Assembly (NCBI RefSeq): GCF_016862075.1
Contig: NZ_BOMG01000041.1
Coordinates: forward strand, 1 to 64,000
DNA length: 64,000 bases
Source of the DNA: Actinoplanes couchii
GTDB taxonomy: Bacteria > Actinomycetota > Actinomycetes > Mycobacteriales > Micromonosporaceae
Reading direction: 5' to 3'
Shown here one piece after another: positions 10,054-56,733 of this stretch. The translations under genes and the position numbers were made by a program. Under the pieces are notes generated by a model. That model was not told where the DNA came from and made no database searches. It was given only the letters and a program-made list of their open reading frames with translations. The first letter of the stretch is position 1. The number at the start of each line of letters is the position of its first letter.

Positions 10054-12549
10054 TCACTTGACGGTGACCGCGGCGGTCGCCGAGTTGTCGCCGTCCGGGG
10101 ACTGGAGCCGGAACTCGTACCGATGGCCGCTGGTCAGCAGTGCGGTCTGGAACCTGCCGTTGCTGGCCGGGAACGGGTCGGTGCGCCAGTCCTCGCCGGC
10201 GGTCGCGTCCCGCAGCTGGACCCGGTAGTTGATCCCGGTCCACGGCTCGCGCCAGGTGACGGTCACCGCGCCCGGCTCGTCGCTGCGCGCGGTGACCCCG
10301 GACGGCAGCGACGACGGCATCCGCTTGCGCACCGGCTTGGACCGGGGGCCCTCGCCGCCGTCCCCGATCGCGGCGACGGCGAAGTCGTACTGATGCCCGT
10401 TGGCCAGGTTGTGCACGAGCGAGCTGGTGCCCTCGACCGGGATCTCCTCCTTGACGAACTCCGTCTGCCCGGCGGTGAGGTCCCGGCGGTAGATCCGGTA
10501 CCACTTAGCGCCGGTGGACTGCCAGCTCAGCGCGACTACGCCGGGCGGGCGCGCCTCCACCCGGAGCCGGGCCGGGGAGTCGGTCGGTGCGGCCACCTCG
10601 GCCCGGACCCGGACCGGTGGGGACTGCTCGCCGACACCGCCGGAGTTGACGGCGGCGACGGTGAACTCGTACTCGTGGCCGTGGATCAGTTTTCCGGTGT
10701 CGAAGCGGGTGTCCTTCGCCAGACCGGGCGGGCCGACCTCGTTGGTGGTGCTCAGGTCCCGGCGGAACACCTGGTACGACAACCCGGGCGCCACCCCGGC
10801 CCAGGTCAGGTGCACGGACCCGTCGGCGCGGGCCTCGGCGACCGGTTGCCCCGGCGCGGGCGGCCGGGCCACCGACGGCACGACCCGGGCGCCGTCCGAC
10901 GGCTTGCTGTCCCCGCCGCCACCGACCGCGACCACGGTGATCTCGTAGTCGTGCCCGTGCACCAGCGGCCCGACGGTGGCGCTCGTCCCCGGGTAGCTGC
11001 CGGCCGGCTCCGGTTTCTCCTGCCCGGCGGTGAGATCCCGGTGGAACACCTTGAACAGCTGCACGAACGGCACCGTGTTCCAGCGGACCGTGACACGCCC
11101 GTCGTCGGAGTGGGCTTTCACGGTCACGCCGGACGGCGCGTCCGGGGGCGGGACGGTGGCCTTCATCAGAGCGACCGCGGACCGTTCGCTCTCGCCGCCC
11201 TCGGTCGTGGCGGTCACGGCGAACTCGTACTCGTGGTCGTTGGTCAGGAAATCGGTCCGGAACTGGGTCGCCGCACCCGGACCGTCGCCCGGCAGGCGTA
11301 CGAAATGAGTCTGTCCGCCTGTCACGTCGCGCCGCCAGACCCGGTAGGTGACGTCGTCGCCGGTGACCGGCTGCCAGCTCAGGCTGGCCGTGCCCGCGCC
11401 GTCGGCGGCCGCGGTCAGCCCCTGCGGAACCGCCGGGGCCTTCCCCGAGGGGCCGGCCGGTGGCCAGGCGGCCTCGACGAACCGGGGCCGGTAGATGCTC
11501 GAGTCGGCGTAGGTGACCGCCTCGTCCAGGTTGTTGACGTTGTACGAGATCAGCAGCCGCCCGTCCGGGGACAGGTCCTGGTGCAGGTCGGCGTCGTAGA
11601 CGATGTGCCCGGAACCGACCTCGGGGGCGCTGAACAAATAATGCGGCCCGGTGAACGGCCCGGCCGGGTTGTCCGCGGTGTAGGCCACGAAGTCGGCGCT
11701 GAAGATCAGGTTGTTCTCGTGCGTGACCAGCACGTACTGATTCCCGACCCGGCGCACGCCGTAGTTGGTGCCGACGCCGCTGAGCAGCCGCGCCGACTCG
11801 GACTCGGTGGTGGACCAGGCGCTGCCGGTCCAGAACTCCCACGCGCCGCCCAGGTCGGTGCCGGCCACCCGGGCCAGGTGGGCGAACTTCATCTTCCCGG
11901 CGACCTCGGTGCCGTAGACGTACGTGTGGCCGCCGTCCGGCATCACCTCGGAGCCCCAGGAGACCCGGTCGCCCAGCGGCAGCTCCCGGACCGGGCCGGG
12001 GGTGAGGGCGTCGGTGCTGAAGCCGGCCAGCACCGTGCCGATCAGCTGGTGGTCCAGCGGGCCGGCGCCGGAGCGGCGGTACCGGTTGGCGAGCACCTGC
12101 ACGGTGTCGCCGGCGCCGGCCACCGCGTCGCCGATCCAGTGGAACTCGTCGGTGGCGGCGGCCGGGACCAGGGCCTCCGGCGCGGTGGCGGTGCCGCCGT
12201 AGAAGAACCGGCCGAGCTTGCCGTCCTGCTGGACGATCGCCGAGTTGTTGATCAGGCCGGACTCCGCGGGCCGGGCGCCGTTCGCCGCGGGCCGGCCGAG
12301 GAAGGTGTCGGAGAACAGCCACAGTGTCCGGCCGCCGGCCAGCGGCACCGAGGCGGTCCGGTCGGCGCCGAGCCAGGTGCCGGAGGTGTTGCCGTAGTCC
12401 TGGAACATCGCGGTCAGGCCGGCCGCCGTGGCGCCGCCCTCGTCCTCTTCGGTGGAGCCCAGCCAGCGGGTGGCGGCGGCCGCCCCCACCGACCCCACGA
12501 TCACGACGGCGGCCACTCCGGCCAGAACCCGTCTACTCACCCTCTGCAA
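10054..12549 (-). CDS. Secreted/anchored propeller-like protein with five fibronectin type III domains
   Basis: 831 residues. A hydrophobic N-terminal segment (about residues 7-30) follows a short basic stretch, so it is exported or membrane-anchored. Residues about 45-360 resemble the DUF4185/DUF5005-type five-bladed propeller family (LWLFSDTFLG is typical of its first blade), related in fold to glycoside hydrolases of the GH43/68 superfamily. Five consecutive fibronectin III modules of about 93 residues follow, each with a Tyr-x-Phe-x-Val strand (for example HEYEFAVTA). No catalytic triad could be assigned. It lies 21 bp downstream of the flippase gene on the same strand, so they are probably co-transcribed and it may act on surface polysaccharide. 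Confidence 0.7.
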   Translation of the reverse strand: MQRVSRRVLAGVAAVVIVGSVGAAAATRWLGSTEEDEGGATAAGLTAMFQDYGNTSGTWLGADRTASVPLAGGRTLWLFSDTFLGRPAANGARPAESGLINNSAIVQQDGKLGRFFYGGTATAPEALVPAAATDEFHWIGDAVAGAGDTVQVLANRYRRSGAGPLDHQLIGTVLAGFSTDALTPGPVRELPLGDRVSWGSEVMPDGGHTYVYGTEVAGKMKFAHLARVAGTDLGGAWEFWTGSAWSTTESESARLLSGVGTNYGVRRVGNQYVLVTHENNLIFSADFVAYTADNPAGPFTGPHYLFSAPEVGSGHIVYDADLHQDLSPDGRLLISYNVNNLDEAVTYADSSIYRPRFVEAAWPPAGPSGKAPAVPQGLTAAADGAGTASLSWQPVTGDDVTYRVWRRDVTGGQTHFVRLPGDGPGAATQFRTDFLTNDHEYEFAVTATTEGGESERSAVALMKATVPPPDAPSGVTVKAHSDDGRVTVRWNTVPFVQLFKVFHRDLTAGQEKPEPAGSYPGTSATVGPLVHGHDYEITVVAVGGGGDSKPSDGARVVPSVARPPAPGQPVAEARADGSVHLTWAGVAPGLSYQVFRRDLSTTNEVGPPGLAKDTRFDTGKLIHGHEYEFTVAAVNSGGVGEQSPPVRVRAEVAAPTDSPARLRVEARPPGVVALSWQSTGAKWYRIYRRDLTAGQTEFVKEEIPVEGTSSLVHNLANGHQYDFAVAAIGDGGEGPRSKPVRKRMPSSLPSGVTARSDEPGAVTVTWREPWTGINYRVQLRDATAGEDWRTDPFPASNGRFQTALLTSGHRYEFRLQSPDGDNSATAAVTVK

Positions 12550-46059: not shown

Positions 46060-46773
46060 TCAGGCGCTGGGCGCAGCGGCCTTGCGGTAGGCGAGCAGGC
46101 CCAGGACCAGGCCCACCAGACCGGCGACCAGGCCCGCGATGCCCCAGGCCGAGCCGCCTCCGCTGCCGCCGTCGCTCTCCGGGGCGGCTGCGGTGTCCGC
46201 GGTCCCCTCGACGGCGGTGGTCTTCTCGACCCCGGCCGCGGTCAGCTTGAGGACCGGGGCGGGCGACTCCGGCTCGGTGCCGTCGGTGCTGGGCTCGTCG
46301 ATCCAGCGCACGACCGTACCGTCGGTGTAGGTCTGCAGGGCCTTGAAGACGATCTGCTCGGTGGCCGGCAGCGGGCCGAGCTGCAGGTCGAACTCCTGGA
46401 AGGTGCCCGGCTTGATCTCCGAACCGGCCGCCGCCGTCCAGGTGATCTTGGTGACCGCCTCGGTGATCTCGCTGTCGTGCACCTTGACCGGGGTGGCCAG
46501 CTTCGACTTCTCGGTGGCCGCGGTCCAGCCCGGCGTCGGCTTGAGCGACACCGACCCGATCGGGGCCTCGACCGGCAGGTTGATCTCCAGCTTGTTGGTC
46601 GACTCGGTGTCGCTCTCGTTCGGCACCCGGAAGGTCACCTTCGAGTAGCCGCCCTGGGTCGCCGTGTCCGGGTTGACGGTCACGTGCGCGGACGCCGGGC
46701 CGGCCAGGCCGAACACGAACGCGGCCGCCACCGCGGTCACGGTGGCGGCTCGGCGCAGGGCTGTCTGCTTCAT
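46060..46773 (-). CDS. YcnI-family (DUF1775) copper-binding exported protein
   Basis: 237 residues from ATG 46773 (agagg upstream); an earlier ATG at 46788 forms an ATGA overlap with copC. Signal peptide ends ASA, and the mature protein starts with His (HVTVNPDTA). In YcnI homologues this N-terminal His and a conserved Trp bind copper; here TPGWTAATEKS carries a suitable Trp. An exported beta-sandwich domain (to about residue 170), a variable linker and one C-terminal membrane helix (about 205-230) follow. It is last in a copper operon with CopC, DyP peroxidase and PCu(A)C. Confidence 0.9.
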   Translation of the reverse strand: MKQTALRRAATVTAVAAAFVFGLAGPASAHVTVNPDTATQGGYSKVTFRVPNESDTESTNKLEINLPVEAPIGSVSLKPTPGWTAATEKSKLATPVKVHDSEITEAVTKITWTAAAGSEIKPGTFQEFDLQLGPLPATEQIVFKALQTYTDGTVVRWIDEPSTDGTEPESPAPVLKLTAAGVEKTTAVEGTADTAAAPESDGGSGGGSAWGIAGLVAGLVGLVLGLLAYRKAAAPSA

Positions 46774-46784
46774 GGGGGAACCTC

Positions 46785-47351
46785 TCATGCTTTACGACGC
46801 TTCAGGAACAGGAAACCGGCGACGGCGGCCACCGCAACCACGACGCCGACGATGATGCCGATGAGGGTGGAGCCGGAAGAATCTGACTCATCCGATTTCT
46901 CGGCAAGAGTCGGGGCGACGCTGGGCGCCTCCGTGGTGGGGGCCACGGACGGTTCCTCCGACGGCGCCTCTGAGGGCGCGGCGGTCGCGGTCGGGTTCGC
47001 GACGGTGAACTCGTAGGAACCCTTCACCGTGTGCCCGTCGGTGGAGACCACCTGGTAGGCGACCGTGTAGACGCCGTTGGCCAGCTCCTCCTCGATGGTG
47101 ATCACACCGGTGGTGCCGTCCACCTTCGGCTCCGACGCGGCCACCTTCCGCTTGGTGGAGTCGCTGACCGCGATGATGGTGTACTCCGGGTCCAGCTTCT
47201 GCAGGAACCGCAGCTTCACCTCGGCCGGCGCCTCCTTCAAAGTCGCCTTCTTGTCCGGGCTGGCCTCGGCGAGCGCGTTGTGCGCCCACGCCGGCGCCCC
47301 CGGCACCAGCACGAACAGCATCGCGGCGAAGGCCAGCAGGGCACGGGTCAG
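46785..47351 (-). CDS. CopC-domain copper protein, CTG start overlapping DyP stop
   Basis: 188 residues if begun at CTG 47351. A signal peptide (LTRALLAFAAMLFVLVPGAPAWA) precedes a mature N-terminus HNALAEASPD, giving the first His of the CopC Cu(II) site; GHTVKGSYEFTV is the C-terminal CopC strand with the second His. A Pro/Thr/Glu linker and a final membrane helix with an Arg-Lys tail anchor it. An ATG at 47435 would add 28 Arg-rich residues wholly inside the DyP coding region, so it is less likely. CTG overlaps the upstream TGA as CTGA, paralleling GTGA at the previous junction. Confidence 0.82.
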   Translation of the reverse strand: MTRALLAFAAMLFVLVPGAPAWAHNALAEASPDKKATLKEAPAEVKLRFLQKLDPEYTIIAVSDSTKRKVAASEPKVDGTTGVITIEEELANGVYTVAYQVVSTDGHTVKGSYEFTVANPTATAAPSEAPSEEPSVAPTTEAPSVAPTLAEKSDESDSSGSTLIGIIVGVVVAVAAVAGFLFLKRRKA

Positions 47352-48526
47352 GCGAGCACCCGCTCGCCGATCCAGCCGCCCTCGGCGCAGCCCGGAGGAA
47401 CGGCGAAGACCGCGGATCCGATCGGTGTTGTCCATTCGTTCAACAGGTCCTTCTCGGCTAGCCGCCGCTGGATGGGGAGGTACTGGCGGACGATGTCAGC
47501 TTGGTACGACGCGAAAACCAGCCCGCTGTCGGGTCGGCCCTGTGCGTCCGGCGCCTCGTCGTAGTTGAACGGCCGCCGCAGGATCTTCAGCTTCGGATCG
47601 GTGACATGTGCCCTGGTCACGTGCGAGAAGTTGGGCATCACCGGCAGCCCGGTCGAGTCGGTCCGCTCGAAGTCCGGCTCGTCGTGCTCGGCCTCGCCGG
47701 TCAGCGGCGCCCCCGACTCCATCCGCCGGCCGGTCGAGTTCTCCTTGTCGCCGACGCTGAGCAGATCCCACGTCTCGATGTCGGTACGGACCCGGCGGAC
47801 CACCAGCTGGGTGCTGTGGTCGGCGTTCCAGACCGCGGCCGCCATCTCGGCGTCCTTCGGATTGGCCGTGCCGTCGAGCTGGCCGAAGACGTTGCGCTGA
47901 GTGAACCCGGCCTTGTGCACCCCGGCGCTGCGCCGGAACCCGCGCTGCACCCAGCGGACCGCGCCGAACGGCCGGGCGTCCTTGATCAGCATGCGCTGGG
48001 TGTGCGTGACGGTGAGCGCATCGTCGGCACAGATCTGCATCACCAGATCACCGCCGGACCAGCGGTCCTGCAGCCGGTCGATCGAGAAGACCGGCAGGTC
48101 GGCGACCGGCGACTCCAGGCCGGCCGCCCGGTAGAGACCGGGGCCGAACCCGAACGTCACGGTCAGCCGGGCCGGGTGCCGGGCCAGTTCGGCGTCGGTG
48201 TCGCCGAGCGCCGGCTCGCCCCGGGTCAGGCGCACGGCGTCGTCGGTGAGCAGCCGCATCATCCGGCCCAGGGCGGCCCGGTCGGTGCCCTTGGCCAGGG
48301 TCAGCGCCACGAACGAGCCGTGCGCGGGCGGCTCGTCGGTGATCCCGGACTGCCGCTCGCCGTGGAACGGGATGATCCCGGTGCCGATGTCCTGGAAGTC
48401 GGCGACCGGAACCGCCGCCACCGAGGGGGTGGCGGCGGGTGCGGCGGCGAGATAGCCGGCCGCGGCGGCCGTGCCGAGCCCGGCCACCGCGCCTCCGGTC
48501 AGCACCGCCCGGCGACTGACGGTCAC
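47348..48526 (-). CDS. Tat-exported DyP-type haem peroxidase (EfeB/DtpA-like)
   Basis: 392 residues, GTG start overlapping the PCu(A)C stop codon (GTGA). N-terminus TVSRRAVLTGGAV is a twin-arginine signal. GQLDGTANP carries the catalytic GxxDG Asp, and the proximal His candidate is in MPNFSHVTRAH. Exported DyP peroxidases oxidise bulky substrates or release iron from haem. In Streptomyces the DtpA homologue works with a PCu(A)C-type chaperone in copper trafficking, which this gene order matches closely. No EfeO/EfeU partners are present, so an iron-uptake role is less likely here. Confidence 0.92.
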   Translation of the reverse strand: MTVSRRAVLTGGAVAGLGTAAAAGYLAAAPAATPSVAAVPVADFQDIGTGIIPFHGERQSGITDEPPAHGSFVALTLAKGTDRAALGRMMRLLTDDAVRLTRGEPALGDTDAELARHPARLTVTFGFGPGLYRAAGLESPVADLPVFSIDRLQDRWSGGDLVMQICADDALTVTHTQRMLIKDARPFGAVRWVQRGFRRSAGVHKAGFTQRNVFGQLDGTANPKDAEMAAAVWNADHSTQLVVRRVRTDIETWDLLSVGDKENSTGRRMESGAPLTGEAEHDEPDFERTDSTGLPVMPNFSHVTRAHVTDPKLKILRRPFNYDEAPDAQGRPDSGLVFASYQADIVRQYLPIQRRLAEKDLLNEWTTPIGSAVFAVPPGCAEGGWIGERVLA

Positions 48527-49059
48527 GAGTGCCCCGGCGCGTAGCTCTCCTGAGCACCGGCGAACGGCTTCGCCACCGCGGTGAAGTCGACCGTCCCACC
48601 ACCGGTCAGCTTCAGCGTGAACGACAGCTCGTCACCGGCCTTGATCGGCGCGGACGGCTTCATCAGCATCAGGTGGTCGCCGCCCGGGGACAGCTCGTGG
48701 CTGCCACCGGCCTTGATCACGAAGCCGCCCTCCTTCGGCTCCATCACCATCGCGCCGTCCTTCATCGTCATGGTGTGCAGCTCCATCGGCGAGGCCGGGG
48801 AGGTCGCCGCCTCGACCGTCACATCGGCGCCGGTGTTGTTGACCAGGGTGGCGAACGCCGCGGTCATCCCGCTGTCGGCGGCCTTGACCCACGGGTCACG
48901 CACGGTCAGCGCGGCGGCCGGGGCCGCGGACGACGCCGAGGTCGAGGTCGAGCCGGCCGCCGGGGCGCCCGACGAGGCGGTGGCGTCCGACGACGAGCCG
49001 CAGCCGGCCAGGGTGGTCAGGGCGAGCGCCGCGACGGCGACGACAGTGCGAGTCAGCAT
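48523..49059 (-). CDS. PCu(A)C-domain copper chaperone lipoprotein
   Basis: 178 residues from ATG 49059, with ggga 6 nt upstream. The lipobox is TLAGC (Cys20). A Ser/Ala-rich linker is followed by the PCu(A)C domain, with the His-Met copper ligands in SPMELHTMTMKDGAMVM and HLMLMKP (family HX10MX21HXM pattern). It delivers Cu(I) to extracytoplasmic cuproenzymes. First gene of the operon continuing into DyP, CopC and YcnI. Confidence 0.93.
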   Translation of the reverse strand: MLTRTVVAVAALALTTLAGCGSSSDATASSGAPAAGSTSTSASSAAPAAALTVRDPWVKAADSGMTAAFATLVNNTGADVTVEAATSPASPMELHTMTMKDGAMVMEPKEGGFVIKAGGSHELSPGGDHLMLMKPSAPIKAGDELSFTLKLTGGGTVDFTAVAKPFAGAQESYAPGHS

Positions 49060-49082
49060 CACATTCCCAAAGATCGTTTCTC

Positions 49083-49094
49083 CCCCGTACGGGG
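49083..49094. promoter_or_regulatory. 12-bp palindrome CCCCGTACGGGG upstream of the copper operon
   Basis: A perfect 12-bp palindrome 24 bp upstream of the PCu(A)C start codon, between the start and a candidate promoter. G/C-block palindromes with an AT-like centre are bound by CsoR-type copper repressors in actinobacteria, so an operator is plausible. No CsoR gene is in the window and the match is not exact. Confidence 0.45.
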
Positions 49095-49103
49095 AACGAC
49101 CGT

Positions 49104-49131
49104 TAGTCGCCACCACCGGCATCGAAGTTCC
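49104..49131 (-). promoter_or_regulatory. Possible ECF-type promoter of the copper operon
   Basis: On the minus strand GGAAC (49127-49131) and CGACTA (49104-49109) are separated by 17 bp. That resembles the GGAAC -35 element of ECF sigma factors, though the -10 is not the usual CGTC/CGTT. Weak evidence based on motif and spacing only. Confidence 0.25.
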
Positions 49132-49151
49132 CGAGATCTTCCAAATATCGA

Positions 49152-49865
49152 TCAACACGCGGCGAGGGCTGCGTGGCGGCCGTGGCGCCACAGGGCTCCG
49201 GCCTCGGGGAAGCCCGCCGCACGGGCCGCCGCGGCGTGCCAGGAGAGGGCCGGGGTGAACTCGGCCGGTGGGCGGGAGCGGAAGATCTCGGTGCGGCGGT
49301 CCATCAGCGGGGCGAACTCGGGGGCCGAGGCCAACTGGGACCACCAGTGCGACCAGGCCTGGCCCGGCGGGGCCTCCAGGGCCGTCATCAGCGCGGGCAG
49401 GCCGTCGTCGGGCATCACGTCGGCCACCACCAGCAGGCCGCCGGGGGCCAGGATGCGGCGGATCTCCGCATACAAGGACCGGATGGCGGCGGGGTTCAGG
49501 TAGTGGACCGTCATCACCGCCGTCACCAGGTGGTAACCGGTGCCGGTGGTGGCGGGCCAGGACGGGTCGGTCAGGTCGGTCTCGACCGTCGTCACCGTGG
49601 TGGGCAGGGCCGCCCGGGCCAGGGCCAGCAGCACCGGGTCCAGGTCGGCCACGGTGATCCGGGCGGCGGGCCAGCGGGTGGCCAGGCGTTCGGCGAACAG
49701 GCCGGGGCCGCCGCCCAGGTCGAGGATGCGGGCGGGTGGGCCGGTGCGGCGCTCGGCGGCGGTGGTGATCACCTGTTCCAGGTCGGCCAGGCCGGGCAGG
49801 TAACCGGTCATCACGCTGTTCCAGGCCGCGCGATGGCCGGTGGGGTCGAGTGCGGTGGACGGCAT
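49152..49865 (-). CDS. Class I SAM-dependent methyltransferase
   Basis: 237 residues. AdoMet-binding motif I is ILDLGGGPGLFAERLA, motif II acidic end VADLDP, and motif III-like LAPGGLLVVADVM. Small-molecule methyltransferase type; substrate unknown. It lies 81 bp downstream of the three-gene PLP operon on the same strand but is separated from it by an inverted repeat, so it may have its own promoter. A functional link with the PLP enzymes is possible but unproven. Confidence 0.85.
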   Translation of the reverse strand: MPSTALDPTGHRAAWNSVMTGYLPGLADLEQVITTAAERRTGPPARILDLGGGPGLFAERLATRWPAARITVADLDPVLLALARAALPTTVTTVETDLTDPSWPATTGTGYHLVTAVMTVHYLNPAAIRSLYAEIRRILAPGGLLVVADVMPDDGLPALMTALEAPPGQAWSHWWSQLASAPEFAPLMDRRTEIFRSRPPAEFTPALSWHAAAARAAGFPEAGALWRHGRHAALAAC

Positions 49866-49878
49866 CAGCTACCTCGGG

Positions 49879-49919
49879 CACGACTGGTCAGCAACGACAA
49901 TCGTTTCTAACCAGTCGTG
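49879..49919. promoter_or_regulatory. Nested inverted repeats between PLP operon and methyltransferase
   Basis: An outer perfect 10-bp inverted repeat, cacgactggt/accagtcgtg (49879-49888 with 49910-49919), encloses an inner aacga-N3-tcgtt palindrome (49893-49905). The outer arms could form a terminator stem for the PLP operon. The inner palindrome, 28 bp from the methyltransferase start, could be an operator. Function undecided. Confidence 0.45.
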
Positions 49920-49946
49920 GGCCCCGATGGTCACGTTTCCCGGGAC

Positions 49947-51110
49947 TCAATGGTCCAGACGGGCCAGGGCGTCCAGGAGGCGGTCCACCTCCTCGACGGT
50001 GTTGTAGACGTGCAGGCTCACCCGTACCGACGCGGTCTTCTCGCCCTGGGCGCCCTGGCAGTGACCGTCGGCCCGGACCAGCAGCCCGTCGCCGGCCAGG
50101 ATGAAACCGAGGTCGTTGGACCCGATCGAGTGGTGCCGGAACGTCACGATGCCGTGCCGCTGCTGCACCAGCGAATCCGACGTCAGGCTGCGCTGGCAGC
50201 CCAGCACCTCGTAGGCGGCCATCTTCGACAGGCCCTCGGTCAGCCGGACACCGAGCGCCTGGTTCCACTGGGCGATCTTCGTCAGGTCCGCTTTCTCCAG
50301 CCAGTCCATCGCGGCGGCCAGGCTGATGATGCCGCTGGTGTTCGGCGAGCCCTGCCAGCCGGCCGGGGTGTAGGCGGGGCCGCGCTGGTTGCGGGCCCAG
50401 AGGGCGCCGGTGCCGGGCAGGGCCATCGCCTTGTGCCCGGAGAAGGCCACGAAGTCGACGTCGAGTTCGCGGACCGAGACCGGGATGTGGCCGAAGCTCT
50501 GTGCCGCGTCCAGGCAGATCGGCACGTCGGGGGCGATCGCCCGCAGGCGCTGCACGTTCATGTCGTTGCCGTAGACGTGGTGCACGTGGGTGAGCGCGAT
50601 CAGCCGGGTCCGCGGGGTGACGGTGAAACGGCGGTGGTCGTAGTCGTGGGCGCTGTCGTAGGGGATGGCCCGCACCGCGATCCCGGACAGCGACGCCGCC
50701 TCCACCCAGGGCACGCTGTTGGCGTTGTGGTCGGCGAACGGCACCACGATCTCGTCGCCGTCGCGCAACTGCGGGAGCAGCCAGTCCCGGGCGACCGCCC
50801 GCAGTCCTTCGGTGGTGCCGCTGACGAACTGGACCGTCGACTGGTCGGGCAGCGGGTCGTCGAGGAAACTCTTCAGCCGGTCGCGGGCCTGGTCGATGCG
50901 GGCGGTGGTGCGGTTGGCCCACGGGTAGGTGCCCCGGGAGGCGTTGGCGTTCCCGGTGGTCAGATAGGTGATCACGGTGTCCAGCACGGACTGCGGCTTC
51001 TGCGAGGTGGCGGCGCTGTCCAGATAGGCCACGTCCGGGTTGGCCTCGATCATCGGGAACTGGTCCCGGAGCACGCGCTGCCAGACGGCGAGGTCGTCGA
51101 GTGTGGTCAT
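49947..51110 (-). CDS. SufS-like class V aminotransferase/cysteine desulfurase homologue
   Basis: 387 residues, fold-type I PLP enzyme. The PLP lysine is in FVAFSGHKAMALPGTG and the Asp-Gln binding pair in CLDAAQSFGH. The N-terminal YLDSAATSQKPQSVLD is as in SufS. A Cys in VRADGHCQG aligns with the active-site Cys region of SufS/CsdA, but the flanking motif (usually RAGHHCAQP) is altered. It could be a specialised desulfurase or a lyase. No suf assembly genes are nearby. Third gene of the PLP operon, only 2 bp after the cysteine synthase-rhodanese gene. Confidence 0.82.
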   Translation of the reverse strand: MTTLDDLAVWQRVLRDQFPMIEANPDVAYLDSAATSQKPQSVLDTVITYLTTGNANASRGTYPWANRTTARIDQARDRLKSFLDDPLPDQSTVQFVSGTTEGLRAVARDWLLPQLRDGDEIVVPFADHNANSVPWVEAASLSGIAVRAIPYDSAHDYDHRRFTVTPRTRLIALTHVHHVYGNDMNVQRLRAIAPDVPICLDAAQSFGHIPVSVRELDVDFVAFSGHKAMALPGTGALWARNQRGPAYTPAGWQGSPNTSGIISLAAAMDWLEKADLTKIAQWNQALGVRLTEGLSKMAAYEVLGCQRSLTSDSLVQQRHGIVTFRHHSIGSNDLGFILAGDGLLVRADGHCQGAQGEKTASVRVSLHVYNTVEEVDRLLDALARLDH

Positions 51111-51112
51111 GG

Positions 51113-52420
51113 TCAGTCCCGGACCAGTTCGAGGCCGGCGTCACGCCAGGCGATGATCCCGCCGTCGAGCGAGCGGGCGTCCGGGTGGCCCATCCGGGTG
51201 AGCAGGGCGGCGTAGGCGGCCGAGCGTTCGCCGACCGGGCAGACCAGCAGGATCGGGCGGCGGCGGCTGAACGGGAGTCCGGCCTGGAGCATGTCGGCGA
51301 ACACCTCGTCGGCGATGTTGATCGAGCCGTCGATGTGCAGGGCCTGGTAGGCATAGGGGTTCCGGATGTCGATCACCAGGGCGTCAGCAGCGAAAGCCGG
51401 CGCCGCGGAAACCGAGATGGACGAGAAGTCCGGATTGTCCGGCAGGGACGAGAGGTCGTTCGCCCGCGGCGGCCGCCCGAACAACGATGGCCGACGATCC
51501 TTGAAGTAACTGAGATACGACTCGACCCGGTCACAGACGATGAAAACCGCGGACCGACGGGACGAAAGCGAAGCGTCGATCGTACGCAAATAGTGAAGTG
51601 AGCCTTGAAAAGCACCTCCCCCCGTCGGCCCGGAGAGGATCCCGCATCGGCGGACCAGGGTGAGCACCCCGTCGACGGCGTCGTCCGCACTGACGGAGCG
51701 GATCTCGTCGTAGACGGTGGGTTCGAACAGCCCGACCTCGTGCACCTCGTCGATGGTCCGGATGCCCGGGATGAAGTCGTTCTTGGCCGCGACCAGCCCG
51801 ACGACACGGGTGTCCGGGTTCTGCTGGCGCAGCGCGCGGGCCACCCCGGTGGACGATCCGGCAGTTCCGACGCAGGCGATGAAATAGTCGGGCGCGTTCC
51901 CGTCCAGATCTTTCACGATCTCGGCGCCGGTGCCGTTGAAGTGCGCGTCCACGTTGCGGGAGTTGAAGTACTGGTCGGTGTGGACGTACCCGCCGCCGTC
52001 GGCGTTGAGCCGCTGGTACATCCGGGTGAGCGGGTCCTCGGTGTCGCTGGGGTCGAGGCACTCGGACCGGCCGGGCAGCTCGTCGATCTCGGCGCCGAGC
52101 AGGAGCAGCAGGTCCTTGATCTCGGGAACCCGCATCCGGTTGGTGACGCTGCGGAATTTCAGTCCGTGCATGCCGGCGATCAGCGCCAGTGCTTTCGCGG
52201 TGTTGCCGCTGGAGAGTTCCACCACGGTGTCGCCGCGGTCGACGGCGCCGGGCAGCAGCGGGCGGACCATGTTCCACGCGGCCCGGTCCTTGACCGAGCC
52301 GAACGGGTTGAGCAGTTCGAGCTTGGCGTAGAGGTCGATGTTGGCCAGGCCGTGCACCGCGGGTTCGATGCGCACCAGCGGGGTGTTGCCGATGGACTCG
52401 GTGATGTCGTCGAATCTCAT
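51113..52420 (-). CDS. Cysteine synthase-like PLP enzyme fused to a rhodanese domain
   Basis: 435 residues from ATG 52420 (ggag upstream), overlapping the preceding gene by ATGA. Residues 1-310 form a fold-type II beta-synthase: Lys44 in NPFGSVKDR, SSGNTAKAL substrate loop and SGPTGGG phosphate loop. The C-terminal 100 residues are rhodanese-like, with catalytic Cys in LLVCPVGERSA. It resembles Rhizobium Y4xP and the SbnA group, which make beta-substituted alanines from O-phosphoserine or similar. The fused rhodanese suggests the incoming nucleophile is a persulfide sulfur. That reaction is inference. Confidence 0.82.
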   Translation of the reverse strand: MRFDDITESIGNTPLVRIEPAVHGLANIDLYAKLELLNPFGSVKDRAAWNMVRPLLPGAVDRGDTVVELSSGNTAKALALIAGMHGLKFRSVTNRMRVPEIKDLLLLLGAEIDELPGRSECLDPSDTEDPLTRMYQRLNADGGGYVHTDQYFNSRNVDAHFNGTGAEIVKDLDGNAPDYFIACVGTAGSSTGVARALRQQNPDTRVVGLVAAKNDFIPGIRTIDEVHEVGLFEPTVYDEIRSVSADDAVDGVLTLVRRCGILSGPTGGGAFQGSLHYLRTIDASLSSRRSAVFIVCDRVESYLSYFKDRRPSLFGRPPRANDLSSLPDNPDFSSISVSAAPAFAADALVIDIRNPYAYQALHIDGSINIADEVFADMLQAGLPFSRRRPILLVCPVGERSAAYAALLTRMGHPDARSLDGGIIAWRDAGLELVRD

Positions 52421-53844
52421 GGGGGCTCCGAGGGCGGGTGGATGGGCCAATACTGTTCGTCGAGGCTCCATTGCCACGACCCGCCCGACCGGAAGGCGGC
52501 AACCTTCCGGCCGAGCGGTTGATGAAGGGCCGAGGTGGCGGTCAGGTCCATGAAGTAACCGGCCGCGTTGACGAAGACCAGCAGGTCTCCGGTCGCGGGC
52601 CGGGCCGGCAGGTGGACCTTGCGCCGGGTGATCAGGTCGGATTCCAGGCAGAGATTCCCTAGAAGATAAACGCCGACCGGGTCAAAATGAAAATCATTCC
52701 GCCGTACGAGCACCGGGTCCATCAGGACGCCGTGCTCCTCCAGGCCCACGTCCCGGGCGTTCAGCCCCAGCCGGACCAGGGTGTCGTCGCCGTCGTCGCG
52801 GACCTCGAGCACCTCGGCGACGACCACACCGCAGTCGTCGAGCAGGGCCCGGCCGGGTTCGACGTCCAGGTCGTACATGTGGTCCAGCAGCAGCGATCCG
52901 AGGGCCGGCGTGCCGGTGCCGAGCAGCGCGTCCAGATAGTCCGCACCGAAGATCCCGCGGTACGCCGGATAGAGCGCGAGTGAGCCGCGCAGCGTGCCGG
53001 ACTCGGCGCGCAGACCGTAGCCGTAGCCGTTCCAGGTCATCGGCGGGCGGTTGCCGAGCACGGCCTGGGCCAGCTCGGAGGTGTACCGCTCCCACTCCCC
53101 CTCGTCGGCCAGATAGCCCAGGCCGAAGCCGCCCCCGACGTCCAGGGTCCACGGCCGCAGCCCCCGGGCCCGGCAGCGCTCCAGCGCGGCCAGGCAGCCC
53201 TCCAGGGCGACCGCTTTCTCGGCGAGGGCCATCGTGTCCAGGTGGTAGGCGACCCCGGCCGGCTCCAGCTCGCGCTCGTGTTTCTGGATCAGGTCGAGCA
53301 CCGTCTCGAACTCGGCGAACGGCACCCCGAACCGGCTGCGGCGGCTCATCACCCGGACCCCGGCGGCTTCGAAACCCGACAACCTGACCATCGTCCGTAC
53401 GCGGGGAAGCCCGTGCTCGCGGACCAGCACCGCCAGCTCGGCCAGCTCGGCCACCGAGTCCGCGTTCACCGTCACCCCGGCGCGCGCGGCCAGCCACAGA
53501 TAGGCGCGGTCCTTGGGCCCGGTGGCCATGATCCGCCCCGGGGCGAACCCGGCGCCGAGGGCGTGCTGCAGCTCGCCGAGCGAGGCGACGTCCACTCCGG
53601 CCTCGGTGGCGGCCAGCTCACGCAGCAGGGCGGCGGACCGGTTGGCCTTGTGCGCGAAGTGGACCCGCCCGCCCAGACGGTGCCGCCGGTGCACGGCGCG
53701 GAAGGCCGCGACGTTGGCGTGCACGGCCTGGGGCAGGACCACGTTGACCGGGGAACCCAGGCCGGTCACCAGCTGTCGCAGCAGGTCGCCCTCGGCGAGC
53801 AGGGACTGCGTGACCGGGCCGATCCTCGGCGTCAGGGGGAGCAC
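52417..53844 (-). CDS. Y4yA-family PLP decarboxylase-like enzyme (fold type III)
   Basis: 475 residues, GTG start. Alanine-racemase/decarboxylase fold with PLP Lys66 in VHFAHKANRS, a DVGGGFG phosphate-binding loop and a C-terminal CLESD segment comparable to the active-site CDxxD of ornithine/diaminopimelate decarboxylases. Homologues are called Y4yA after a Rhizobium gene next to y4xP; no reaction is established. First gene of a three-gene operon (ATGA overlap with the next). Its start codon lies in a hairpin loop. Confidence 0.82.
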   Translation of the reverse strand: MLPLTPRIGPVTQSLLAEGDLLRQLVTGLGSPVNVVLPQAVHANVAAFRAVHRRHRLGGRVHFAHKANRSAALLRELAATEAGVDVASLGELQHALGAGFAPGRIMATGPKDRAYLWLAARAGVTVNADSVAELAELAVLVREHGLPRVRTMVRLSGFEAAGVRVMSRRSRFGVPFAEFETVLDLIQKHERELEPAGVAYHLDTMALAEKAVALEGCLAALERCRARGLRPWTLDVGGGFGLGYLADEGEWERYTSELAQAVLGNRPPMTWNGYGYGLRAESGTLRGSLALYPAYRGIFGADYLDALLGTGTPALGSLLLDHMYDLDVEPGRALLDDCGVVVAEVLEVRDDGDDTLVRLGLNARDVGLEEHGVLMDPVLVRRNDFHFDPVGVYLLGNLCLESDLITRRKVHLPARPATGDLLVFVNAAGYFMDLTATSALHQPLGRKVAAFRSGGSWQWSLDEQYWPIHPPSEPP

Positions 53845-53850
53845 TCCCCC
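53835..53850 (-). promoter_or_regulatory. Hairpin enclosing the Y4yA start codon and ribosome-binding site
   Basis: ggggga (53835-53840) and tccccc (53845-53850) form a perfect 6-bp stem whose 4-nt loop contains the GTG start codon (53842-53844). On the mRNA the upstream arm is also the only ribosome-binding-like sequence and directly abuts the start. The arrangement could limit initiation. Confidence 0.5.
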
Positions 53851-53897
53851 AACGTATCCGTCGTCACCACTCTCCGCAAAGGAGTGAACACTCAGAG

Positions 53898-54995
53898 TCA
53901 GATAGTACGCAGGTCAAGGGTGTGCCAGACGGCTGCCTCCTGCGATCCCGTCGACCACCACAGCACACCGTCCTTGGTGGCGGCCAGATCGGCGGCCACC
54001 GCGAGCGGCACGTCCCGGCCGGTCGCCAGATCGTGCACCAGCAGGGCGGCGGTGCCGGTCAGGTCGGCCTCCGGGCCGGGCACCGAGAGGATCTCGAACC
54101 GGTCCAGCACCGCCACGTCGTTCACCGCGGCCTGGGTGTCGGTGCCGGCCACCCGTCGGCGCTGGGTGCCGTCGGCGTGCATCAGGTCGATCCGGGCGGT
54201 GCCCTCCCCGGTCATCACGCTGACCCGGCACCAGACCGGCCCGCACATGCCCCACTCGGCGCCGGTGAACGGCACCTCGATGGTGGCGCCACTGTCCATG
54301 TTCGACATCCGGATCCGGCCGGACTGCCCGCCGGTGTCGTCGGTGATCCACGGCCAGGCGGACATCGCCCACTGGCCCTTCTCCTCCCGGACGGTCACCG
54401 CGCCGCCGGTCAGCGCCACCGACCGGATCTGGGTGGTGGCGTCGCCCTCACCGGCCACCCAGTGCACCCGGCCGCCGGCGATCACCAGGTCGTGCTGGTT
54501 GCCGTAGAACAGGGTGTTGCCGGTGTCCGCGGTCAGCATCCGGGGCTTCGCGCCGTCGGTGCCCACCGACCAGATCTCGACCGGCTTGCCGTTGACCGAT
54601 TCGGCCCAGACCAGACGGTTGTCGGCGGCGGTCATGCCCTCGAAGCGGGGGTCGCCGTCGGCCGGCAGGTCCCGCAGCTCACGGGCGATGCCGTCCTTCT
54701 CGATCAGCAGCTTCACCCGGTCGCCGGCGGTGATCGTGCCGACCGCGGTGGTGGCGTCCAGGAAGTGCACCGGCTCGACGGTCAGGTCCCGCAGGTCGGC
54801 GCGGTCGGCGTCCGGCCAGGCCTGCTCGACGGTGATCCGGGTGCCGGTGCCCGCCTCCGGCACCGGCGGCTCCGGGACGGTGCCCGCCAGCAGCGCCCCG
54901 GCCGCGACCAGGGCCGCGCCGAGCCCGAGATACGCCCTCGGATTTGCCGGTCGCCGGCCGGAGGTCCCGGCCTCGCCACGTCGGAGAGGGTTCAC
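53898..54995 (-). CDS. Membrane-anchored beta-propeller-like protein
   Basis: 365 residues from GTG 54995, which overlaps the TIGR03943 stop as GTGA; a longer frame to 55118 is unsupported. Short basic N-terminus, one membrane helix (about residues 20-42), then an exported domain with repeated Trp/Gly-Asp strands (for example RLVWAESVNGKPVEIWSVGTDG and VHWVAGEGD). These look like the blades of a TolB/PD40-like propeller. No enzymatic motif seen. Likely co-transcribed with the permease and TIGR03943 genes. Two Cys (GPVWCRV region) could be bridged. Function unknown. Confidence 0.6.
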   Translation of the reverse strand: MNPLRRGEAGTSGRRPANPRAYLGLGAALVAAGALLAGTVPEPPVPEAGTGTRITVEQAWPDADRADLRDLTVEPVHFLDATTAVGTITAGDRVKLLIEKDGIARELRDLPADGDPRFEGMTAADNRLVWAESVNGKPVEIWSVGTDGAKPRMLTADTGNTLFYGNQHDLVIAGGRVHWVAGEGDATTQIRSVALTGGAVTVREEKGQWAMSAWPWITDDTGGQSGRIRMSNMDSGATIEVPFTGAEWGMCGPVWCRVSVMTGEGTARIDLMHADGTQRRRVAGTDTQAAVNDVAVLDRFEILSVPGPEADLTGTAALLVHDLATGRDVPLAVAADLAATKDGVLWWSTGSQEAAVWHTLDLRTI

Positions 54996-55759
54996 TCGTA
55001 CTGCTGCTTCGGTGCGGCGACCGGCTTCCACTGTTCGACCTCGAGGTAGGCGATGTCGGCCTGGTTGACCGGGTCCTTGCCGCGCTTGGCGCTGAGTCTG
55101 CCGGTGACCTCCAGCCACGTGCCGGCCGGGACGTCCACGACCGGGCCGCCGTCGAGACCGACCTTGATCGGGCGGCCGTCGGCGGCACAGCAGCTCACCA
55201 CGATCCGGGCCAGCATCACGCCCTCCGGCCCGGTGGTGACAAAACCGGTCAGCGCGAGACGGCGGCCGGTGACGCTGCGGCCCTCGTCGTAGATCACCCG
55301 GGAGGCGTAGTCGAGCAGGCTCACCCGCACCGGGTCGCCCTCGGGCAGCGGGGCGTAGTCCGAGTCGGCGCTGACCTGCACGGTTCCGGACTGGCCGGCG
55401 GTGTAGGAGCCGAGCGCGGGCGGGGCCACCAGCAGCAGGCCGAGGACCGGCAGGATCAGCAGCCAGCCGACCCGCGGCTCGTGGTGTGCGTGGCCGTGAT
55501 CGTCGGCGTGCTCGTCGCCGCCGTGCTCGCCGTCGCCCTCGGCGGAATCGGCACCGGAAGAGGCGGCCCCGGACGCGGCGGGCTTGCGGAATTCGTACCA
55601 GAGAGTCATGACAGCGGCCGCGACCAGTGCCAGACCCGCGGCGATCAGGAACGGCCGCAACCCCTCCTTGACGTAGCGCAGGTAGAGGTCGCCGAGCGAC
55701 GCCTTCAGCACCGCACCGCCGAAGAGGAACAGGATCACCGCCTGGGCCTGCCGGTTCAC
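54992..55759 (-). CDS. TIGR03943-family membrane protein
   Basis: 255 residues, GTG start overlapping the permease stop (GTGA). Two N-terminal membrane helices, a His/Asp-rich loop (HGGDEHADDHGHAHH, about residues 78-92) suited to metal binding, a third helix, then an exported domain with SCCAADGRPIKVGL and the OB-like GTWLEVTGRL segment. Pairs with the CEC permease throughout Gram-positive bacteria (YcgQ/YcgR). The His-rich loop suggests a metal-related role for the pair; substrate unproven. Confidence 0.85.
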   Translation of the reverse strand: MNRQAQAVILFLFGGAVLKASLGDLYLRYVKEGLRPFLIAAGLALVAAAVMTLWYEFRKPAASGAASSGADSAEGDGEHGGDEHADDHGHAHHEPRVGWLLILPVLGLLLVAPPALGSYTAGQSGTVQVSADSDYAPLPEGDPVRVSLLDYASRVIYDEGRSVTGRRLALTGFVTTGPEGVMLARIVVSCCAADGRPIKVGLDGGPVVDVPAGTWLEVTGRLSAKRGKDPVNQADIAYLEVEQWKPVAAPKQQYE

Positions 55760-56733
55760 AGCAGCACCGCCCCGAAACCGACGGCCACCAGAATCGCCAC
55801 CACGAAGGTCGCCGGGGCGAACCGGGTGGCGAAGCCGCGACCGAAAACGCCCGCCTGCATCGAGATCAGCTTGAGATCGACCATCGGACCCACCACCAGG
55901 AAGACCAGACGCGACGTGAGCGAGAACTGGGACAGCGACGCGGCGACGAAGGCGTCCGCCTCACTGCAGATCGAGAGGAGTACGGCGAGAACCGCGAGCG
56001 CCAGCACGGACAGCACCGGCTGCGCGGCCAGGGTCTGCAGCCACGCCTCCGGCACGATCACGTTGATCGTCGCGGCGGCGGCCGCCCCGACCACCAGGAA
56101 CCCGCCGGCGTGCACCACGTCGTGCCGGCACGCCGACCAGAACGCCCGGCCCTTGGAGGCGCCGTCCAGGTCGGGCCGGTGCGGCAGCTTGATCCACTCG
56201 GCTCTGCCGATGCGCAGCCACAGCCAGCCCATCAGCACCGCCACCACCAGGCTGGCCAGGCCGCGGGCGACCACCATCTCCGGGTTGTCCGGGAAGGCGA
56301 CCGCGGTGGCGACCAGCACGATCGGGTTGATCGCGGGAGCGGCCAGCAGGAACGCCAGGGCCGCCGCCGGGGTGACGCCGCGGCGGATCAGCGAGCCGGC
56401 GATCGGGACCGCACCACACTCGCAGCCGGGCAGGACCACCCCGGCGACACTGGCCGCCGGGACGGCCAGGGCCGGATGTTTCGGCAGGGCTCTCGCCCAG
56501 AACGAGCGCGGCACGAACACCGCGATCACCGCGGACAGGATCACCCCGAAGACCAGGAACGGCACCGCCTGGACCAGCACCGAGACGAACACCGTGGTCC
56601 AGGTCTGCAGGCGTTCGCCCTCGACCAGACCGGCGATCGTGTCCCGGAAGACCACCAGGAGCACCAGCAGGACGGCGAGGATCTCGACCTCGACGGACCT
56701 GGTTCTGGTTTTCGTCTTCAGGGCGTCCGTCAC
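55756..56733 (-). CDS. YcgR-type permease (PF03773) with CEC motif
   Basis: 325 residues with about eight membrane segments. GCECGAVPIAGSLIRRG carries the family's conserved Cys-Glu-Cys, and the repeat ICSEADAFVAASL holds a second Cys-Ser-Glu site. Family members are annotated only as permeases; Cys/Glu pairs imply soft-metal or metalloid handling. First of a three-gene unit with TIGR03943 and the propeller-like gene, joined by 4-bp overlaps. A separate ion exchanger gene lies 83 bp upstream. Confidence 0.87.
   Translation of the reverse strand: MTDALKTKTRTRSVEVEILAVLLVLLVVFRDTIAGLVEGERLQTWTTVFVSVLVQAVPFLVFGVILSAVIAVFVPRSFWARALPKHPALAVPAASVAGVVLPGCECGAVPIAGSLIRRGVTPAAALAFLLAAPAINPIVLVATAVAFPDNPEMVVARGLASLVVAVLMGWLWLRIGRAEWIKLPHRPDLDGASKGRAFWSACRHDVVHAGGFLVVGAAAAATINVIVPEAWLQTLAAQPVLSVLALAVLAVLLSICSEADAFVAASLSQFSLTSRLVFLVVGPMVDLKLISMQAGVFGRGFATRFAPATFVVAILVAVGFGAVLL

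Follow-up and report, generated by a model that had tools for sequence, protein, structure and literature searches.

The Fusarium enzyme Fda4 combines a pyridoxal 5'-phosphate (PLP)-dependent domain with a rhodanese-like domain and condenses O-phosphoserine with L-alanine, aspergillomarasmine A synthase condenses O-phosphoserine with L-aspartate, and the marasmins are termed metal-chelating, according to the accessible part of a 2025 report (PMC12751119). For staphyloferrin B, the available portion of a second source describes SbnA, a fold II enzyme that uses O-phosphoserine, together with a PLP decarboxylase (PMC12414870). A third, available as an excerpt, presents [S,S]-EDDS (ethylenediamine disuccinate; aes) of Amycolatopsis japonicum as an actinomycete zincophore under the control of Zur, unlike the nonribosomal peptide synthetase (NRPS) and NRPS-independent siderophore (NIS) pathways (PMC4993170). 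Here we describe a locus in a 64,000-nucleotide stretch of Actinoplanes couchii DNA (the window), where genes encoding a Y4yA-type fold III PLP enzyme, a CysM-like fold II PLP enzyme fused to a rhodanese domain (CysM-rhodanese) and a SufS-like fold I PLP enzyme lie end to end on the minus strand (49947-53844) and are followed by a methyltransferase gene. With a probability of roughly 55%, we read this locus as a zinc-limitation metallophore pathway of the marasmine/EDDS/staphyloferrin B type in which the SufS-like enzyme is the new element. The favoured product looks like a small zinc-binding metabolite, either a zincophore or a zinc-buffering ligand, rather than the outcome of a general sulfur pathway. 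To our knowledge, few bacterial zincophores have been described.

Like the window enzyme, aspergillomarasmine A synthetase and Fda4 (Fusarium poae) carry a CysM-like PLP domain and a C-terminal rhodanese-like domain, and both use O-phosphoserine as far as the accessible text goes. Both are fungal, however, and show 23-25% identity to the window enzyme; the two domains are placed differently in the synthetase, and no Y4yA, SufS or Zur is named for the fungal systems in the accessible part of PMC12751119. Staphyloferrin B biosynthesis shares with the window an O-phosphoserine-type fold II enzyme and a PLP decarboxylase, and SbnA is among the fold matches of the CysM-rhodanese model. The window operon differs in having a SufS-like enzyme in place of the SbnB-like dehydrogenase, in that no NIS synthetase was seen in it, and in its zinc rather than iron context. 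In staphyloferrin B synthesis, the PLP decarboxylase SbnH acts on the conjugate. The aes pathway was compared by description only; the ethylenediamine core of EDDS could derive from a decarboxylated diaminopropionate unit, and we know of no SufS-like enzyme in that pathway. The SufS and CsdA cysteine desulfurases share their fold and catalytic residues with the SufS-like enzyme, which differs from them in its shortened segments and in being encoded beside Y4yA and CysM-rhodanese in the loci compared. The original prediction, made on this DNA from its letters, took the locus for a candidate undescribed pathway. Nothing tied to it was found in the open literature searched, some of it available in part, including work on zincophores with a desulfurase, rhodanese or synthase and on zincophores and Streptomyces Zur clusters since 2019.

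The four-gene unit and its enzymes

The Y4yA-type gene (52417-53844, minus strand) starts with GTG and encodes a decarboxylase-like protein of 475 aa, assigned through PF02784 and motifs. Its TGA shares an ATGA overlap with the ATG (52420-52418) of the CysM-rhodanese gene (51113-52420, minus strand), whose 435-aa product, with PLP lysine K44, was assigned from Pfam, alignment and a structural model. The rhodanese domain of this protein (PF00581, approximately residues 331-435) is encoded by 51113-51430, and the codon of its Cys394, within LLVCPVGERSA and invariant in the alignment, lies at 51239-51241. Two bp separate the stop codon of this gene from the ATG of the SufS-like gene (49947-51110, minus strand), which encodes a class V fold I PLP enzyme of 387 aa, assigned from NCBIfam and alignments, with the codon of C351 at 50058-50060. 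Pfam E-values were 4.5e-24 for Orn_Arg_deC_N in the first protein, 2.1e-53 for PALP and 1.2e-15 for Rhodanese in the second, and 3.5e-74 for Aminotran_5 in the third. Three PLP folds with a fused rhodanese, joined by the overlap and the 2-bp gap, had been predicted, and coordinates, junctions and Pfam domains all agree.

Scores against NCBIfam models of housekeeping relatives stayed below the cut-offs: 111.8 bits of 297.9 for LysA with the Y4yA-like protein, 173.3 of 413, 138.2 of 350.95 and 145.3 of 349.95 for CysM, CysK and SbnA with CysM-rhodanese, and 255.6 of 475.1 for SufS with the SufS-like enzyme. Because these values are far under the cut-offs, the trio does not consist of ordinary housekeeping copies by these models. 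Ordinary CysK, SufS and LysA copies were ruled out by scores some two to three times under the cut-offs together with the trio's own conserved operon. An identity of the SufS-like enzyme as an encapsulin-cargo desulfurase was also rejected (206.1 of 800 bits; no search for a capsid gene was made).

A Y4yA-like protein was found in 27 of the 60 genomes searched, the window's own genome included, and 27 of 29 fetched homologous loci show the same three-gene order. These 27 include L038, with a stop inside Y4yA, and L040, with Y4yA and SufS each in two pieces; the other two are L039, a diverged trio variant interrupted by an extra gene, and L041, which holds a decayed Y4yA on its own. In 80 named loci, which are the best 80 of 268 relatives from a contig scan, the order is kept in 77 (SufS is missed in L057, L087 and L107). 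All 80 are Micromonosporaceae or Streptomycetaceae by title, so the spread beyond these two families is under-sampled. In an even draw of the class, counting the Y4yA match alone, 27 of 394 genomes gave a match at E <= 1e-25. Directly downstream and on the same strand, 74 of the 80 loci carry a class I S-adenosylmethionine (SAM)-dependent methyltransferase gene (misses in L057, L059, L060, L070, L074 and L125), which in the window encodes 237 aa (49152-49865, minus strand; domain scan and gene-order comparison). The trio had been predicted to belong together, as its kept order bears out, and the constant fourth member that the original prediction proposed to look for proved to be this methyltransferase. 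Since the gene order is the same and the flanks differ, the four genes travel as a unit and not by chance.

The catalytic residues that we mapped, whose roles we take from general family knowledge, are kept. For the SufS-like enzyme, an alignment of 36 sequences (34 of the 80 named loci, the window and L039) shows no variation at K227, H128, R346, C351 or R363. C351 aligns with the Cys of Bacillus subtilis SufS, relative to which the loop around C351 and the segment before it are shortened. An altered Cys motif had been noted here; the surrounding loop is indeed changed, whereas the cysteine itself is kept. K44 and the rhodanese C394 of CysM-rhodanese are invariant in 34 sequences (32 of the 80 loci, the window and L039). 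An alignment of 109 Y4yA sequences shows near-invariance, at 97% or more, for the Lys of AHKAN, for EPGRAL and for the CLE-D Cys, and the window protein carries the Lys in FAHKANRS, the Cys in NLCLESD, and EPGRAL. The CLE-D Cys aligns with a Cys of plant diaminopimelate decarboxylases. Judged from these residues, all three enzymes look catalytically competent.

The AlphaFold2 model of CysM-rhodanese (mean pLDDT 82.1) gave aspergillomarasmine A synthetase (PDB 8h4h/8h4q, named 'Rhodanese domain-containing protein') as its first four Foldseek matches. With a second aligner, just two of the 50 matches listed aligned end to end, over both domains, and both were synthetase entries (8h4q_N: 414 residues aligned, model residues 1-434, Z 27.7, rmsd 19.7). 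The matches listed mainly cover model residues 3-318, and the absence of other families among them carries no weight. In the model, a two-domain architecture of the aspergillomarasmine-synthetase type is present over the full length.

Upstream of the trio, a de novo motif search of upstream regions identified a promoter-like motif conserved ahead of Y4yA. Its candidate -10 element in the window, TACGTT, lies at 53851-53856 (minus strand) with the start codon 6 nt past it, and the transcript is possibly leaderless. A sigma-70 consensus scan of 49000-54500 found no site, and a terminator scan gave a single site that was not above shuffles.

Zinc links of the locus

The zinc link, like the methyltransferase, is missed by the original prediction. 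Using the actinobacterial Zur motif taken from the available part of PMC5472717, we scored the gap between the SufS-like and methyltransferase genes, which was recognisable in 21 of 32 loci (the window and L013-L043). The best matches scored 15-20, with a mean of 16.7 against 12.2 in dinucleotide shuffles, and 18 of the 21 gaps carried a Zur-type box at p <= 0.04 (100 shuffles each); the boxes of the window, L020 and L033 had p ~0.06-0.07. In the window, the predicted palindrome CAACGACAATCGTTTCTAACC spans 49892-49912 and is proposed from its motif score, its relatives and a genome-wide pattern. Across the named loci, the gap score was at least 17 in 46 of 74, a level reached by 0.3% of letter shuffles and by none of the 80 coding controls; the shuffles kept letters only for the 80 loci and dinucleotides for the 32. 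The control background held 14 sites scoring at least 17 on both strands of 388,000 bases. Ahead of the ZnuA-type genes in these arrays, a Zur-type match was found at p <= 0.03 in 9 of 9 cases.

The window-box pattern, allowing up to 2 mismatches, occurs at four places, representing three sites, in the 11.46-Mb genome of the same organism, and the reversed-pattern control gave 0. The first site is the window itself. The second, with 1 mismatch, lies directly before a gene for a CobW/COG0523 GTPase and is the sole other match in this genome within one mismatch of the window box. The third, matched on both strands, is upstream of a decayed second Y4yA. The accessible text of PMC6103462 describes COG0523 proteins as frequent targets of Zur. 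From its predicted Zur box the methyltransferase is clearly zinc-linked, and the trio appears to be linked mainly by association.

The neighbouring genes point in the same direction, as zinc-linked genes flank 38 of the 80 loci but only 1 of 20 control stretches (Fisher p 0.0003). The set comprised a ZnuA-type binding protein, a His-rich protein, ArsR/SmtB-family and Fur-family proteins, COG0523 proteins and an L31-type ribosomal protein, and our own score cut-offs were applied alike to loci and controls. The controls were 20 arbitrary 19.4-kb stretches at round-number positions in ten genomes, chosen with no formal random draw. Removing the weakest transporter matches, the sole basis for counting L080, L085 and L090, left 35 of 80 (p 0.0012), and removing the His-rich protein too left 30 of 80 (p 0.006). 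Each genus genome searched yielded two to four pieces matching the ZnuA family, and of the 6 genus genomes with the trio, 4 (G001, G003, G006 and G007) have one ZnuA-family gene inside this array. In part of the loci a ZnuA-type importer follows in the same orientation. An ABC ATPase scanned alongside was rejected as zinc-type, its closest model being an F420-0 type transporter, and no ATPase match entered the zinc count. For the His-rich protein, Pfam gave no match. In L097, L101 and other Streptomyces loci, a small His-rich protein and an ArsR/SmtB-family regulator are encoded after the methyltransferase, ~3.5-4.4 kb downstream of the CysM start, and in L101 a Fur-family gene is next.

A proposed pathway and competing explanations

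From gene order, conservation, kept catalytic residues, the methyltransferase Zur-type boxes, zinc-gene neighbours and the fold match we infer the substrates, step order, product and metal of the following scheme. CysM-rhodanese would form the PLP-aminoacrylate of O-phosphoserine, and the amine of an amino acid, or possibly a sulfur nucleophile, would attack it to give a diaminopropionate-type conjugate, as made by aspergillomarasmine A synthetase, Fda4 and SbnA. Y4yA would decarboxylate this conjugate in the manner of SbnH in staphyloferrin B synthesis. The SufS-like enzyme may deliver a persulfide from cysteine to the fused rhodanese, and a thiol or another sulfur ligand may be added, which is the least certain step. 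The methyltransferase, made once Zur leaves its box at low zinc, would finish the ligand, and in part of the relatives the ZnuA-type ABC importer in the same orientation would be the last component. A bolder and rather unlikely reading is that the locus defines a widespread zincophore class of its own, with a diaminopropionate/marasmine backbone from CysM-rhodanese, decarboxylation by Y4yA, sulfur from a dedicated SufS-to-rhodanese relay, and Zur-timed methylation, so that three PLP folds would make a sulfur-bearing zinc ligand with no NRPS or NIS enzyme.

If the scheme is true, it would give the Y4yA family its first biochemical setting, and the locus would allow testing of whether the fused rhodanese moves sulfur or is merely structural. 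Type and collection strains are among the Streptomyces, Actinoplanes and Micromonospora in which the four-gene locus recurs, and a search for the product through zinc-starved metabolomics would therefore be direct.

A number of observations weigh against the metallophore scheme. Regarding regulation, the window box taken by itself is weak (score 15 of 23, p ~0.06), and the fixed cut-off of 17 is passed in 6 of 27 gaps of the window's family as compared with 40 of 47 in Streptomycetaceae; in the window's family the best match sits at a similar place and is less canonical in sequence. The window-derived pattern misses the boxes before the organism's own znuA-type genes, boxes that agree well with the published motif. 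The region upstream of the trio has a Zur-like box at p <= 0.03 in just 6 of 32 loci and a score of at least 17 in 6 of 79 named loci, and none was found upstream of the window trio; on these counts we dropped the idea that Y4yA is generally preceded by a Zur box. Because trio upstream regions mostly lack such a box, the methyltransferase alone is clearly Zur-linked. The zinc link could then be restricted to the methyltransferase and transporter, with the trio a separate pathway located upstream by chance, which would suit the position of the box after the trio, the trio's own promoter-like motif and the lack of a Zur-like box in most trio upstream regions. We nevertheless consider this very improbable, as the methyltransferase gene immediately follows the trio, in the same orientation, in 74 of 80 loci of two families, strong Zur-like boxes are present at some trio promoters (L031, L035, L036 and L043, the last on a Streptomyces plasmid), and a decayed Y4yA lies in another zinc region of the same genome.

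The zinc neighbourhood has its own weak points. The fetched stretch holds no zinc gene in 42 of the 80 loci, and no exporter stood out among the compared gene clusters of the loci. A binding-protein fragment fits MntC (manganese) models as well as AztC (zinc) models, below cut-off, and the neighbouring Fur-family protein scores 81.4 bits with NCBIfam Fur and 50.7 bits with Zur, both under the cut-off. Some loci have L31-type ribosomal protein and COG0523 genes as neighbours, and these, as well as a SufS-like desulfurase with a rhodanese as its possible acceptor, would also fit a zinc-sparing role. Under zinc starvation the trio would then stand in for a sulfur step that depends on zinc, such as SufS-SufU transfer or a thiol cofactor pathway, and no chelator would be secreted. 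This appears improbable given that some of the arrays also contain a ZnuA-type importer, and given the metallophore-like setting of Y4yA and its fold II partner elsewhere, with SbnB-type, MatE and, once, iron ABC genes.

Concerning the fused enzyme, the rmsd of 19.7 means that its two domains sit differently from those of the synthetase. In a profile search bacterial CysM (O-acetylserine sulfhydrylase B) came first at 1.1e-43, with 8h4q at 2.8e-31 over profile positions 26-374 only. As the PLP domain is by sequence nearer CysM, the architecture is settled and family membership tentative. A sulfur-free product would also leave the invariant SufS and rhodanese cysteines unexplained. The original prediction had proposed a sulfur-installing pathway, with a SufS persulfide passed to the rhodanese, a C-S bond formed on the CysM aminoacrylate, and the sulfur amino acid decarboxylated by Y4yA; on this reading the methyltransferase may S-methylate, and the product, a sulfur amine or a thiol ligand, could still serve to bind zinc. 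Such a relay is chemically possible. Both cysteines are invariant in the aligned sets, the rhodanese fusion and SufS occur together and neither is found in 16 other clusters, and the SufS-partnered Y4yA proteins fall on one side of the tree (96/92). That co-occurrence may, however, reflect a single inherited event, and making cysteine from cysteine sulfur would gain nothing if the electrophile and the desulfurase substrate were both the usual ones. Those CysM-rhodanese enzymes for which we found a characterisation make C-N bonds, and for the Fusarium cluster the accessible part of PMC12751119 names no SufS. Because Fda4 and aspergillomarasmine A synthetase make C-N bonds from O-phosphoserine, a fused rhodanese is by itself no sign of sulfur chemistry, and its use as a sign of sulfur installation does not hold. 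Sulfur installation as the main function is a serious contender that we still judge unlikely, and the earlier interpretation as a whole is partly supported.

The Y4yA family elsewhere and flanking genes

In 16 of 16 compared clusters lacking SufS, Y4yA stands beside a fold II cysteine-synthase-like enzyme that has no rhodanese domain. In the comparison of bacterial Y4yA loci, the rhodanese fusion goes together with SufS and is found in 0 of these 16 clusters, and the SufS-partnered Y4yA proteins form one side of the tree with support 96/92. In the clusters inspected for them, the other Y4yA partners are an ornithine-cyclodeaminase-family (SbnB-type) or FAD/NAD(P)-binding protein, often with a MatE exporter, and iron ABC transporter genes occur once. 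We infer that the Y4yA family fits decarboxylases for diaminopropionate-type metallophores, the third partner being exchanged for SufS in the lineage of the present locus.

The comparison with Rhizobium drawn in the original prediction is a loose one. The rhizobial set y4yB-y4yA-y4xP-y4xO-y4xN-y4xM, like the window, places Y4yA beside a cysteine-synthase-like gene, so that Y4yA and Y4xP do stand together. Its gene lists, as far as the sources were available, contain no SufS or rhodanese and instead a putative oxidoreductase, a putative siderophore biosynthesis protein and an MFS-type transporter (PMC10970691). The accessible text of PMC3973906 terms Y4xP a cysteine synthase and reports that Nop secretion was unchanged in y4yA, y4yB and y4xP mutants and that mutating y4xP in one strain improved the nodulation of one soybean. 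The available parts of reviews give rhizobial y4yA mutants as without effect and assign Y4yA no reaction there. The listed plasmid Y4yA proteins of rhizobia are ~30-32% identical.

Variant clusters in 3 of the 394 class genomes contain an extra protein of ~425 aa between SufS and Y4yA (L039:5022-6311, L132:8271-9548 and a matching gene in L133), which in L039 has a C-terminal heavy-metal-associated (HMA) domain. We also considered the SufS-less Y4yA clusters as a Zur-regulated class, with sites scoring at least 18 in only 5 of 18 loci scanned (L134, L140, L145, L045 and L046). Those of L140 are close to zinc genes and to its second, SufS-type copy, and such a class is therefore not claimed. 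L140 (G220:C6:283000-302900) holds two adjacent Y4yA clusters that differ in type; genes for an L31-type ribosomal protein and COG0523 proteins separate them, and Zur-like boxes occur at 10073, 13881 and 19501. A Mycobacterium avium plasmid carries, in the neighbourhood of a Y4yA/ornithine-cyclodeaminase/MATE cluster, a Zur-like site (L046:16789-16809) with a second cysteine-synthase gene and an MFS transporter gene downstream of it. A further cluster without SufS begins with a TauD-family dioxygenase gene (L138:6480-7577), followed by ornithine-cyclodeaminase, Y4yA, CysK-like and MatE genes. The decayed second Y4yA of the window's own genome (L041, G000:C64:191000-210900) has in its vicinity several Zur-like boxes as well as an anchored-repeat-like metal ABC transporter and CobW-type GTPases, the last two recognized by eye and by cluster.

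Within the window, a copper-type block (DUF1775, CopC, Dyp peroxidase and PCuAC; 46060-49000) adjoins the operon, and part of it is found in another place and orientation in the sister locus L013. A copper link suggested by the CopC, DyP and PCuAC genes is read as incidental because the flanks differ between loci. On the upstream side (53898-56733), the window encodes a DUF1980_C protein, an ArsP_1-type permease and a protein with no Pfam match, and all three recur within the 20-kb loci L013, L024, L031 and L037.

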